Below, piece by piece: positions 12,226 through 16,332 of a stretch of DNA of 20,901 nucleotides. Origin of the DNA: Solirubrobacteraceae bacterium (lineage in GTDB: Bacteria > Actinomycetota > Thermoleophilia > Solirubrobacterales > Solirubrobacteraceae). The stretch's first letter is position 1, and each line of letters opens with the position of its first letter. The notes below the pieces were generated by a model. That model searched no databases, was not told the DNA's origin, and saw only the letters and a list, made by a program, of their open reading frames with translations. A program made the position numbers and the translations under genes. The DNA is taken from the NCBI GenBank assembly GCA_025935735.1, contig JAICUS010000028.1, forward strand, positions 1 to 20,901, given 5' to 3'.

Positions 12226-12651
12226 GTGTCAACTAGAGACATTCACCACCGCATCCAGGACGCGCTCGTCCGGACGATCGCGAACGTGGTCGTGTTCAAC
12301 TCGCAGGTGGCCGACCAGCTGGGCCTCGGCGTCAGCGACATGCAGTTCATGAGCTACCTGCAGCAGGAGGGAGCGTTGTCTCCCGGGCGGCTCGCCGAGC
12401 TGTCGGGGCTCAAGAGCGGGAGCGTGACCGGCGTGATCGACCGGCTCGAGCAGGCGGGCTGGGTACACCGCGAGCGCGACGAATCCGACCGCCGCAAGGT
12501 CCGCGTCGTGCTCAACGAGGAGCGCCTCAACGCCGCGGAGAGCCCGTACGCCGGCCAGGCGGCGAACCTGCGGCGGGTGCTGGACACGTTCGACCCGCTC
12601 GAGCTGGACACGATCGCCCGCTTCCTCGAGCGGCTCAATCAGCCCATGTAG
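12226..12651 (+). CDS. MarR family transcriptional regulator
   Basis: This 141-aa winged helix-turn-helix protein has an N-terminal dimerisation helix (IHHRIQDALVRTIANVVVF), the DNA-binding region LSPGRLAELSGLKSGSVTGV followed by IDRLEQAGWVHRERD, and the wing with the family-typical ESDRRKVRVVL. A C-terminal helix completes the dimer interface. MarR proteins usually repress a divergent exporter and themselves and let go of DNA when they bind phenolic or aromatic carboxylate ligands. GTG 12226 is chosen because AGGAAAG lies about 7 nt upstream and the translation then begins at the dimerisation helix; an earlier in-frame start at 12145 would overlap the exporter start. Its 3' end overlaps the convergent gamma-carbonic-anhydrase-like gene by 13 bp. 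Confidence 0.92.
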   Translation: MSTRDIHHRIQDALVRTIANVVVFNSQVADQLGLGVSDMQFMSYLQQEGALSPGRLAELSGLKSGSVTGVIDRLEQAGWVHRERDESDRRKVRVVLNEERLNAAESPYAGQAANLRRVLDTFDPLELDTIARFLERLNQPM

Positions 12652-13151
12652 CGCAGCCGCTTCTCCTGGTACTCGAGCGCCGCCGTCTCCACCCAGTGCT
12701 GCGAGCTGCCGGCCAGCGCCTTCTTGACCGCGGCGGGCACGCCGGCCGCCAGCATCCCGGCCGGGATCTCCACGCCCTCGCCGACCACCGCGCCGGCCGC
12801 CACCAGCGCCCGGGCGCCCACCCGCGCGCGCTGGAGCACGATCGCGCCCATGCCGATCAGCGCGCCGTCCTCGATCACGCAGCCCTCGAGCATCGCCATG
12901 TGGCCGACGGTGACGTCGGCCCCGATGACCGTGGGCAGGTCCTCGGCGCAGTGGATGACGCAGTTGTCCTGGACACAGGAGCCGCGCCCGACCCGGATTC
13001 CGCCCGAGTTGTCGCCGCGCAGCACCGCGCCGAACCACACGCTCGCCGCCGCCTCCACCACGACGTCGCCGATCAGCACCGCGGTGGGGGCGATGTAGGC
13101 GTCCTCGGCGACCCGCGGCGCCTTCCCGTCGAGCTCGATCACCGTCGCCAT
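12639..13151 (-). CDS. Gamma-carbonic anhydrase / PaaY-like left-handed beta-helix protein
   Basis: This 170-aa hexapeptide-repeat protein has the gamma-class fold: repeats from about residue 18 to 135, then a C-terminal helix (WVETAALEYQEKRLRYMG). Family residues R45, D47 (VLRGDN) and Q61 (CVQDN) are present, as are metal ligands H67 (NCVIHC) and H84 (VGH). The third metal ligand, usually His in GHGAxLHGC, is Glu here (E89 in GHMAMLEGC), which is unusual. As last gene of the paa-like operon it corresponds to PaaY, a thioesterase-like accessory protein that rescues dead-end CoA esters in phenylacetate degradation; that role is inferred from context. It overlaps the upstream crotonase gene by 13 bp and the convergent MarR gene by 13 bp. 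Confidence 0.88.
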   Translation of the reverse strand: MATVIELDGKAPRVAEDAYIAPTAVLIGDVVVEAAASVWFGAVLRGDNSGGIRVGRGSCVQDNCVIHCAEDLPTVIGADVTVGHMAMLEGCVIEDGALIGMGAIVLQRARVGARALVAAGAVVGEGVEIPAGMLAAGVPAAVKKALAGSSQHWVETAALEYQEKRLRYMG

Positions 13152-13888
13152 CGCGCCTCCCTGTGCTCCTCGGTGCCGATCAGCAGGCTCTGGGCGAGGC
13201 CCTCGGCCACCATCCCGGACTCCAGGTCGACGTTGCCGGCCAGCCAGAGCAGCCGCTTGGCCGCGGCGTAGGCCTGGGGCGAGCGCTCGAGCGCCACCGC
13301 CAGCCGCGCGCGGGCGGCGTCCAGCAGCGCGCCGGCGGCGACCACCTCGGTGACCATGCCCAGCCGCAGCGCCTCGGCCGACGAGACCTCCTCGCCGCCC
13401 AGCAGCACGTCGCGCGCCCGCGCGAGCCCGATCAGCTTGACCAGCCGGGTCACGCCGCCGTGCGACGGGATGATCCCGAGCCGCCCCTCGCGATAGACGA
13501 AGCGCGCGCCCTCGGCCATCAGCCGCACGTCGCAGGCCAGCGCGAGCTGCGTGCCCGCGCCCGTGGCCACGCCGTTGATCGCCGCCACGGTCGGCTTCTC
13601 CAAGCGCTCGACCAGCGAGATCAGCGCCGTGAGCCGGTGCGAGTCGTGGCGGAACTCGCGCGGGTCCCAGTCGCGCTCGAAGCGCGCGCGGTCGCCGCCC
13701 GCGCTGAAGGCACTGCCCTCGCCGGTGAGGATCACCGCGCGCACGGCCGCGTCGTCGGCCGCCGCCTCGAAGGCGTCGCGCAGCGCGGCGGCCATCTCGC
13801 CGTCGATCGCGTTGCGCTTCTCGGGCCTTGCCAGCGTGACCGTGAGCACGCCGGCGTCGAGCTGCGACGTTACCGGCGCCGGATCCAC
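13139..13888 (-). CDS. Crotonase family protein (enoyl-CoA isomerase/hydratase, PaaG-like position)
   Basis: This 249-aa protein has the crotonase fold. Oxyanion-hole segments are FSAGGDRARF (about 61-70) and GVATGAGTQ (about 106-114). Only one of the two hydratase glutamates is kept: E134 in YREGRLGII, while the first is Gln (Q114 in AGTQLALACD), so double-bond isomerisation or another reaction may be more likely than hydration. The start is uncertain. I use GTG 13888, which overlaps the zinc-ribbon gene by 19 bp; the codon at the more natural start is GTA, and the next GTG would remove the first strand. Directly after the oxygenase genes, it sits where PaaG, which isomerises the ring-epoxide CoA to an oxepin, would be expected. 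The exact reaction is inference. Confidence 0.85.
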   Translation of the reverse strand: MDPAPVTSQLDAGVLTVTLARPEKRNAIDGEMAAALRDAFEAAADDAAVRAVILTGEGSAFSAGGDRARFERDWDPREFRHDSHRLTALISLVERLEKPTVAAINGVATGAGTQLALACDVRLMAEGARFVYREGRLGIIPSHGGVTRLVKLIGLARARDVLLGGEEVSSAEALRLGMVTEVVAAGALLDAARARLAVALERSPQAYAAAKRLLWLAGNVDLESGMVAEGLAQSLLIGTEEHREARWRR

Positions 13889-15119: not shown

Positions 15120-15418
15120 GCCACGCCCAGCTCCCGCAGCTTGCGCACGCCGCGGCGGCTCATGTGGTCGCGCCGCCACTCCTCGAAGCACTCCTCGATC
15201 TCCACCTGCTCGACGCCGTCGAGGCGGAGCAGCCGCTCGCGCACGTCGGCCTTGATCAGGTCCTGGCAGGGGCAGCCCATCGACGTGTAGGTGAGCTTGA
15301 CCACCGCGCGGCCGTCGGCGAACGACACGCCGCGCACCAGCCCCATGTCGACGATCGAGATCGGGTACTCGGGGTCGTCGACCTCGCGCAGCGCGGCCCG
15401 GATCTCCTCGGCGCTCAC
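15116..15418 (-). CDS. paaD: PaaD N-terminal (DUF59/MIP18) domain as a separate protein
   Basis: This 100-aa protein starts VSAEEIRAALREVDDPEYPI and has the DUF59 hallmarks DPEYPISIVDMGLVRGV (about 15-31) and TYTSMGCPCQDLIKADV (about 43-59) with cysteines C49 and C51, where MIP18-type proteins have a conserved GCP. PaaD assists maturation of the PaaA diiron or associated Fe-S sites in phenylacetyl-CoA oxygenase systems. The zinc ribbon that normally completes PaaD is missing here and is encoded separately at 13870-13995. GTG 15418 overlaps the PaaA stop (GTGA), and its TGA overlaps the PaaB start (ATGA). A SufT-type Fe-S assembly protein is a weaker alternative, since its place between PaaA and PaaB favours PaaD. 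Confidence 0.87.
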   Translation of the reverse strand: MSAEEIRAALREVDDPEYPISIVDMGLVRGVSFADGRAVVKLTYTSMGCPCQDLIKADVRERLLRLDGVEQVEIEECFEEWRRDHMSRRGVRKLRELGVA

Positions 15419-16332
15419 AGGTACCTCGTCATCTGCCGGTAGCCGCGCTGCACCTGCTCGACCAGCTCCTCGTTGGCCGGCCCGCGCCGCTTCCAGCGCT
15501 GGAGGACCTGGTCCCAGGAGATCTCGCCCTCGGCGAACAGCCAGCGCTTCTGGAGTTCGTCGAACTCGCACGGGAAGGGGTAGTCGAGCACGTAGTCCTC
15601 GCCCTCCTTGTGGGCCGGGACCTTCAGCCCGTGCTGCTCGCACAGCGGCACCGCGGTGCGCAGCCAGGCCTGGCGCAGCTGGTCGTTGGTCGATCCCTTC
15701 ATGCCGTACTCGATCTGCTCGGTGTGGCGCTTCATCGAGTCCGGCAGCCCGAACCACTCCATGACCATGGGGAACATCCAGTCCATCGCCTCCTGGAGCT
15801 GGAGCTTGGTCTCCGGGTTCTCCGACATCGTCGCCACCCACTGCTCGCCGTGGCGCAGGTGGAAGTTCTCCTCGCGCTCGACCTTGACCAGCGCGCGCTT
15901 CCACGGGCCGTAGCTGGAGTTCTGGAAGACGTCGTCGAGGATGCAGAAGCCGGCGCGGTCGTAGAACGCGTTGGCCACCACCATCTCCGCCCAGTTGTCG
16001 AGCGGGACGTCGAACGCGTAGGGGTGGCGGAAGTCCTTCGGGTCGCGCTCGTAGACCAGCTTCTCCACGTCGACGCCGAGGTCGCGCAGCAGCCGGTAGG
16101 CGATGTGGGCGTGGCCGAGCTCGTCCTGGACGATCCCGGTGACCGAGATGTAGGAGTTGATCCGGGGCGCGTCCTGGGCGGCGCGCATGTAGGCGGGGGC
16201 GGAGATCAGCTCCGTGTCACCCGAGACGACGAGCGTGCGCTTGAGCCCCTCGATGTAGCGCTCGGTGGCGTATTCGGGCCCTTCGATCAGCTTTCCGGCG
16301 CGGATGCGCTCCAGCAGCTCGTCTTCGGTCAT
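15415..16332 (-). CDS. paaA: PaaA-like catalytic diiron subunit of aryl-CoA monooxygenase
   Basis: This 305-aa helical-bundle protein matches PaaA, the catalytic subunit that epoxidises the ring of phenylacetyl-CoA, in length (309 in E. coli) and in all six expected metal-ligand positions: E41 (GDTELI), E71 and H74 (VQDELGHAH), D125 (FYDRAG), E155 and H158 (EREENFH). The shared SYGPWKRALVKVEREE and STNDQLRQAW segments support the family. The rest is divergent from E. coli PaaA (e.g. LGHAHIAYRLLRDLG), so the substrate may not be phenylacetyl-CoA; with a benzoate-CoA ligase gene nearby, benzoyl-CoA or a related aryl-CoA is plausible. It is far shorter than BoxB (about 470 aa). ATG 16332 has GGGAGGAG just upstream. 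It is the first gene of the eight-gene operon. Confidence 0.9.
   Translation of the reverse strand: MTEDELLERIRAGKLIEGPEYATERYIEGLKRTLVVSGDTELISAPAYMRAAQDAPRINSYISVTGIVQDELGHAHIAYRLLRDLGVDVEKLVYERDPKDFRHPYAFDVPLDNWAEMVVANAFYDRAGFCILDDVFQNSSYGPWKRALVKVEREENFHLRHGEQWVATMSENPETKLQLQEAMDWMFPMVMEWFGLPDSMKRHTEQIEYGMKGSTNDQLRQAWLRTAVPLCEQHGLKVPAHKEGEDYVLDYPFPCEFDELQKRWLFAEGEISWDQVLQRWKRRGPANEELVEQVQRGYRQMTRYL

Follow-up and report, generated by a model that had tools for sequence, protein, structure and literature searches.

Here, we analysed a stretch of 20,901 nucleotides from a Solirubrobacteraceae bacterium (GenBank assembly GCA_025935735.1, contig JAICUS010000028.1, positions 1 to 20,901; 'the window' in the following), whose minus strand carries, at 12639-16332, a run of eight overlapping genes for a PaaABC-type diiron oxygenase. 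The enzyme belongs to a distinct clade, and we consider it likely that it acts on benzoyl-coenzyme A (benzoyl-CoA) or a close substituted benzoyl-CoA and thereby takes the role of BoxAB. This reading draws on the clade of its own, the conserved diiron ligands, the loss of a lysine bridge known from PaaA, residues shared with BoxB, the neighbouring genes and the co-occurrence of genes across genomes. Benzoyl-CoA is a central intermediate in the degradation of aromatic compounds, and the clade is suggested to start its oxygen-dependent breakdown.

The operon order is A, DUF59, B, B', C, zinc ribbon, crotonase and PaaY-like, with overlaps of 4, 4, 4, 8, 4, 19 and 13 nucleotides between consecutive genes. 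Gene models and Pfam and NCBIfam families agree with the arrangement that the original prediction had described from the window alone. The eight genes are:

15415-16332, minus strand: A, PaaA-type catalytic diiron subunit, 305 amino acids (PF05138, 204 bits)
15116-15418, minus strand: DUF59 protein, N-terminal half of PaaD, 100 amino acids, GTG start (PF01883, 72 bits; TIGR02159 positions 1-89)
14916-15119, minus strand: B, short PaaB-like bridging subunit, 67 amino acids (hhalign probability 96.6 to canonical PaaB)
14743-14919, minus strand: B', second and shorter PaaB-like subunit, 58 amino acids (hhalign 99 to B, 85 to PaaB)
13992-14750, minus strand: C, PaaC-like partner, 252 amino acids, GTG start, later starts possible (PF05138, 130 bits)
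13870-13995, minus strand: zinc ribbon, separate C-terminal part of PaaD, 41 amino acids, GTG start (PF23451 Zn_ribbon_PaaD, 46 bits, cut-off 27)
13139-13888, minus strand: crotonase, 249 amino acids, GTG start (PF00378)
12639-13151, minus strand: PaaY / gamma-carbonic-anhydrase-like hexapeptide protein, 170 amino acids (NF050158, 155 bits, and TIGR02287 PaaY, 132 bits, both below cut-off)

Subunit A has the PaaA fold and, as predicted, keeps all six diiron ligands (E41, E71, H74, D125, E155 and H158); in the clade alignment, five of these positions are conserved in 88 of 88 rows and E155 in 87. The E. coli ligand numbering was fixed by alignment with the BoxB ligands given in the accessible part of PMC5489048. 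The claimed divergence of A was borne out as well: it reaches 119.2 bits against the PaaA equivalog TIGR02156, which has a cut-off of 280 bits, and an NCBIfam scan gave no match to the BoxB model TIGR03225 at an E-value of 0.1. The protein is 81% identical to proteins from metagenome-assembled genomes of Solirubrobacterales.

A protein homologue search (E 0.001) found 2974 sequences, of which 120 were listed. In a first tree, the clade comprised 88 rows (three added later) with a support of 100/95, and canonical plus canonical-like PaaA formed a branch of 13 rows (100/97). A second tree including three BoxB and three small BoxB-like sequences recovered the clade (41 rows, 100/94), canonical PaaA (100/98) and BoxB (100/100; 3 Chloroflexota sequences plus the 3per alignment) as separate branches, while the deeper joins in the trees are unsure owing to long branches. 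Subunit A thus falls outside canonical PaaA. Hosts of the clade include Actinomycetota, Chloroflexota, Thermus plasmids, Armatimonadota, Acidobacteriota, haloarchaea and others, and the clade is a widespread, previously overlooked relative of the phenylacetyl-CoA-oxidising enzyme.

For synteny, we compiled 85 loci, namely the window, 80 genome loci and four plasmid loci (L001-L084 for the latter two sets). As the 80 genome loci were found with patterns derived from the clade, they do not define its outer border. In 67 loci the sequence extends at least 2.6 kb beyond A on the downstream side, and every one of these keeps the arrangement A-DUF59-B(-B')-C-Zn (the remaining 18 loci were left out of the count); chance or an annotation artefact is thereby ruled out. 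B' is present in 32 of the 67, and its distribution on the tree requires at least three gains or losses. Hence, a separate clade with conserved synteny exists as proposed, with the qualification for B'. The operon is indeed rearranged with respect to classical paa operons; this is, however, not a peculiarity of the window but the standard layout of the clade.

Which substrate would such an enzyme accept? In PaaA, K68 forms a lysine bridge with E49, E72 and D126, according to the accessible part of PMC4498308. The K68 column holds lysine in 13 of 13 canonical PaaA and in 0 of 88 clade rows (isoleucine in 82; I67 in the window), and the E49 column holds tyrosine in 85 of 88 clade rows (Y48 in the window). 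T119 and S123 are second-shell residues of BoxB in the portion of PMC5489048 available; their window counterparts are T40 and S44, and BoxB R212 and G214 align with R126 and G128. Throughout the clade, T is found in 85, S in 86, R in 79 and G in 88 of 88 rows, each of the four occurring in 3/3 BoxB and 0/13 canonical PaaA. With BoxAB the system shares the T/S/R/G residues, the missing lysine bridge and the association with a benzoate-CoA ligase, along with the predicted substrate. The accessible text of PMC4498308 describes PaaA and BoxB as strictly specific without cross-reaction, benzoyl-CoA even inhibiting PaaABCE; given this strictness, a PaaABC-type benzoyl-CoA enzyme would show how specificity is set, and its determinants would be testable at the four positions named above.

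Alternatively, the enzyme might be a phenylacetyl-CoA epoxidase after all, divergent in sequence but acting on the usual substrate. It shares with PaaABC(D)E the fold and pairing of PaaA and PaaC, the diiron ligands, a PaaB-type bridge and the DUF59 and zinc-ribbon parts of PaaD. It differs from that system in gene order, in the split PaaD and in the short, duplicated PaaB. We regard this alternative as improbable, given the score far below the TIGR02156 cut-off, the lost lysine bridge and the separate clade. Moreover, none of 28 genomes that host relatives has PaaK over cut-off (an E 1e-100 match is present in 16 and absent from 12), canonical PaaA over cut-off coexists with the clade in 4 of the 28, and PaaE occurs in one at E 1e-30, a count used since E. 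coli PaaE itself misses the curated cut-off. In Thermus thermophilus HB8, TTHA0968-0973 constitute a separate phenylacetate operon with PaaR, as stated in the accessible part of PMC6651687, whereas the Thermus clade member is plasmid-borne and has a B' and neighbours of its own. Canonical PaaA also lacks the link to ligase and reductase described below.

4-Hydroxybenzoyl-CoA reductase produces benzoyl-CoA. Homologues of its alpha subunit adjoin A in six loci, and a seventh (L019) has a weak hydroxylase match; four of the six strong molybdenum hydroxylases were checked and score 837-880 bits against TIGR03194 (cut-off 994.55), with the next family at 508-553 bits. A homologue of at least 796 bits is present in 27 of 50 host genomes, in one of them (Pyrinomonas) over cut-off. 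We then drew on a sample of 251 Chloroflexota genomes (E 1e-70 for the clade, E 1e-220 for the reductase), of which 44 carry the clade, 44 the reductase and 60 the TIGR02262 ligase, all of these ligases over cut-off. Canonical PaaA is present in 26 (24 over cut-off), BoxB over cut-off in three, small BoxB-like proteins scoring about 90 bits in three, and benzoyl-CoA reductase B hits in 16, reaching at least 290 bits in six. Among these mutually related genomes, the ligase occurs in 39 of 44 clade-positive versus 21 of 207 clade-negative genomes (p = 6e-25) and 4-hydroxybenzoyl-CoA reductase in 31 of 44 versus 13 of 207 (p = 3e-19). Genomes with canonical PaaA show no such link, neither to the ligase (5/26, p = 0.64) nor to the reductase (2/26, p = 0.27). 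The telling point is this pattern of association and the fact that canonical PaaA, in the same set of genomes, does not show it. No genome among the 251 combines the clade with BoxB (3), benzoyl-CoA reductase B of at least 290 bits (6) or a small BoxB-like protein (3). The 60 ligase-positive genomes comprise 39 with the clade, five with benzoyl-CoA reductase hits, two with BoxB, three with the small proteins and 11 with none of these, and benzoyl-CoA reductase of at least 290 bits is found in 5 of 13 genomes with 4-hydroxybenzoyl-CoA reductase outside the clade-positive set versus 0 of 31 with both. BoxB over cut-off was found in 0 of the 28 host genomes.

At the six ligand columns, the partner subunit C has K-E-H-D-E-H in 62 of 79 aligned loci, including the window, where E. 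coli PaaC has C-L-Q-D-A-H; nine Rubrobacter-type loci have E-K-H-G-E-T or V-K-Q-G-E-T. The pattern looks as if a lysine plugged a dead metal site in C. A PaaC-like gene is retained in 67 of 67 loci, whereas BoxB works without such a partner: in the accessible part of PMC4498308 it is monomeric, lacks a structural subunit and uses BoxA as reductase. Together with the missing BoxB model match and the separate branch, this distinguishes A from BoxB.

The original prediction had further stated that PaaB is duplicated and very short and that PaaD is in two pieces, and both statements hold. B gives only E 0.001 against PF06243 PaaB, below that family's cut-off, and B' had no match in the Pfam scan; as their short length precludes a confident Pfam assignment, the link to PaaB and to each other comes from profile-profile comparison. 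B also matches NCBIfam TIGR04031 (E 1e-8, 35 of 57 bits), the Htur_1727 family, which is named a radical-SAM-partnered (S-adenosylmethionine) candidate RiPP (ribosomally synthesised and post-translationally modified peptide); judged by this match, the family may be PaaB-like. The DUF59 protein, whose role is probably maturation, and the zinc ribbon cover complementary stretches of TIGR02159 (1-89 and 107-144 of 146). A frame-shifted canonical PaaD or PaaB was ruled out, since other clade members likewise encode the two PaaD pieces, and also B and B', by genes of their own. Splitting of PaaD as such has a precedent: NCBIfam already names a DUF59 and a zinc-ribbon protein in haloarchaea (paad_haloarch, paae_haloarch), and PaaD is also split in two in a paa operon of Haloferax whose genes follow the canonical order. 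This haloarchaeal PaaABCDE differs from the window system in its order A-B-C-D-E and in its PaaA, which groups with canonical PaaA. Haloarchaea also carry members of the new clade, in the order A-DUF59-B-C-Zn.

Outside the operon, the window contains the following genes, of which the ligase, short-chain dehydrogenase, aldehyde dehydrogenase, enoyl-CoA hydratase and flavoprotein genes form one plus-strand run (306-6274):

306-1796, plus strand: benzoate-CoA ligase family protein (TIGR02262, 558.6 bits, cut-off 375.25; PDB 2v7b, 442 bits)
1793-2146: protein of 117 amino acids between ligase and short-chain dehydrogenase, without Pfam or NCBIfam match, also in L001
2143-2829, plus strand: short-chain dehydrogenase (PF13561, 160 bits)
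2842-4287, plus strand: aldehyde dehydrogenase, candidate for the ring-opened aldehyde (PF00171, 517 bits)
4288-5061, plus strand: enoyl-CoA hydratase/isomerase (PF00378, 179 bits)
5054-6274, plus strand: ferredoxin/rubredoxin-reductase-type flavoprotein, candidate electron donor (PF07992 and PF14759 Reductase_C)
12145-12651, plus strand: MarR-type regulator, convergent with the operon end (PF01047, 56 bits)
16363-16536, plus strand: rubredoxin, divergent from A, candidate electron carrier (PF00301, 81.5 bits)
about 16533-17225, start unsettled: R2-like ligand-binding-oxidase-like diiron protein (60.6 bits, cut-off 194)

The nearby activating enzyme therefore belongs to the benzoate-CoA ligase family and is not PaaK, and PaaE is missing, both as predicted; in the available sequence of the loci, phmmer with E. 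coli PaaE as query (E <= 1e-12) detected PaaE in 0 of 85, window included. Across the 85 loci, whose flanks are of unequal length, a ligase match (phmmer, E 1e-12) is present in 26, an aldehyde dehydrogenase in 48, an ECH2-type crotonase, related to the enoyl-CoA hydratase/isomerase at 4288-5061, in 52, a PaaK-like ligase in five and a PaaZ-like match in two. The five cluster ligases checked (window, L014, L008, L005 and L083) all exceed the TIGR02262 cut-off. A rubredoxin motif adjoins A in the window and in its five nearest relatives with enough upstream sequence (L001, L002, L003, L005 and L013; the sequence of L004 begins at A and is outside this count), and each of these five relatives has the Reductase_C flavoprotein gene as well. 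The R2-like gene also follows the rubredoxin in L001, L003, L005 and L013. Haloarchaeal clade members carry a 2Fe-2S ferredoxin gene near A in place of the rubredoxin; outside the Solirubrobacterales and haloarchaeal loci, no convincing ferredoxin motif was found beside A, most 2Fe-2S pattern hits being spurious frames. An Amidohydro_2 gene lies near the cluster in 13 of the 85 loci, mostly of Rubrobacter (L010, L011, L014-L021, L025, L059 and L060). In the haloarchaeal loci L082 and L083, the cluster is located near paired UbiD decarboxylase and MBL-fold (metallo-beta-lactamase) genes, and at a distance of about 11 kb L082 also encodes a formate dehydrogenase.

The neighbourhood also bears on the exact substrate, which could be a substituted benzoyl-CoA or another small aryl-CoA, e.g. 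hydroxybenzoyl-CoA, with benzoyl-CoA used in some lineages. HAYGLGN occurs in 14 of 24 cluster ligases compared, the window included, where FAYGLGN is the conserved motif of benzoate-CoA ligases in the accessible part of PMC10803450. Lineage-specific neighbours (Amidohydro_2 genes, haloarchaeal UbiD genes) and the lack of 4-hydroxybenzoyl-CoA reductase in the window's nearest relatives point the same way, the latter leaving room for a substituted benzoyl-CoA there. Conversely, the solved structure nearest to the window ligase is the benzoate-CoA ligase 2v7b (442 bits, against 398 for anthranilate-CoA ligase), and the BoxB-like residue set is equally strong in the window's own group. We thus regard this variant as unlikely.

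Several observations weigh against benzoyl-CoA as the substrate. The window ligase has HAYGLGN where benzoate-CoA ligases of solved structure have FAYGLGN, and on sequence grounds the variant may reflect a different acid substrate; the ligase is also absent from 5 of the 44 clade-positive Chloroflexota genomes. Apart from that of Pyrinomonas, the reductase homologues in the host genomes remain below the TIGR03194 cut-off, the two Chloroflexota genomes over this cut-off are clade-negative, and at E 1e-150 no 4-hydroxybenzoyl-CoA reductase was found in those genomes of Solirubrobacterales and Rubrobacter that are closest to the window. All benzoyl-CoA reductase B hits stay below the cut-off of their model, and weaker ones of 236-241 bits occur in five clade-positive genomes. 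As the genomes are mutually related and not independent samples, the p-values given above overstate the association. The residues common to the clade and BoxB may be ancestral, because BoxB is not joined to the clade in the tree, and the rubredoxin might serve the adjacent R2-like protein instead. Finally, BoxC over the TIGR03222 cut-off was found in 0 of the 28 host genomes, and BoxC was thus set aside as ring opener. The best BoxC-like crotonase (76-86 bits) adjoins the oxygenase in ten genomes (G011-G013, G015, G017, G018, G020-G022 and G024) and is not oxygenase-adjacent in G001, the window's nearest relative.

For the favoured benzoyl-CoA oxygenase, we infer the following scheme. The benzoate-CoA ligase (306-1796) would make the CoA ester. 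C would hold subunit A, and a B/B' pair would form the bridge, standing in for the PaaB homodimer. Subunit A would activate O2 at the diiron site and epoxidise the ring of the ester, while the DUF59 protein and the zinc ribbon, which together correspond to PaaD, would help to assemble the metal site. Electrons would arrive via the reductase (5054-6274) and the rubredoxin (16363-16536) instead of PaaE. The crotonases, the aldehyde dehydrogenase and the dehydrogenase would then open the ring and lead into beta-oxidation. The operon crotonase, whose best PDB chains are Thermus 6sla and 3hrx (about 139 bits), is possibly the epoxide isomerase or responsible for ring opening; 3hrx appears beside PaaG in the accessible part of PMC4498308.

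The proposal that a PaaA-type route with different substrate and architecture replaces BoxAB stands in its architectural part, and several independent lines favour benzoyl-CoA over phenylacetyl-CoA as its predicted substrate. Taking everything together, we lean narrowly towards the view that PaaABC-type machinery is a second solution to the aerobic dearomatisation of benzoyl-CoA, found in a widespread clade that combines bridging by B/B', a PaaD in two pieces, a lysine-plugged partner and interchangeable donors (rubredoxin and Reductase_C flavoprotein here, 2Fe-2S ferredoxin in haloarchaea), which would be the commonest benzoyl-CoA consumer in Chloroflexota and whose members are now recorded as phenylacetyl-CoA epoxidases. 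If so, Chloroflexota, Rubrobacter, Thermus plasmids and haloarchaea would gain an aerobic route for benzoate and 4-hydroxybenzoate. PaaA/PaaC domain hits, which were put forward in 2026 to mark the phenylacetate pathway (PMC13186573, accessible part), would then also mark another pathway. We found no earlier report of a PaaA-type benzoyl-CoA oxygenase in the open-access literature, most subscription journals lying outside this search.

A non-catabolic aryl-CoA oxygenase, biosynthetic or detoxifying, would fit PaaA relatives with ketosynthase and P450 genes next to them, an example being found in Streptomyces sp. Mut1. This relative groups with canonical PaaA in the tree, however, and the window and its relatives carry degradation genes (ligase, hydratase, aldehyde dehydrogenase, thiolase or transport), which makes such a function very improbable for the clade. 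The Mut1 plasmid locus itself (L125), in which the PaaA/PaaC relatives are accompanied by ketosynthase III, P450 and AMP-ligase genes, is perhaps a natural-product cluster. The three small BoxB-like proteins (L147, L148 and L149), whose closest PDB entry is 4mud (SSO1313 of Sulfolobus), have the ADTExxS and DRxG residues in common with the window clade and occur in ligase-positive genomes (3/3), but group with BoxB (100/98); they may represent a third kind of benzoyl-CoA oxygenase.

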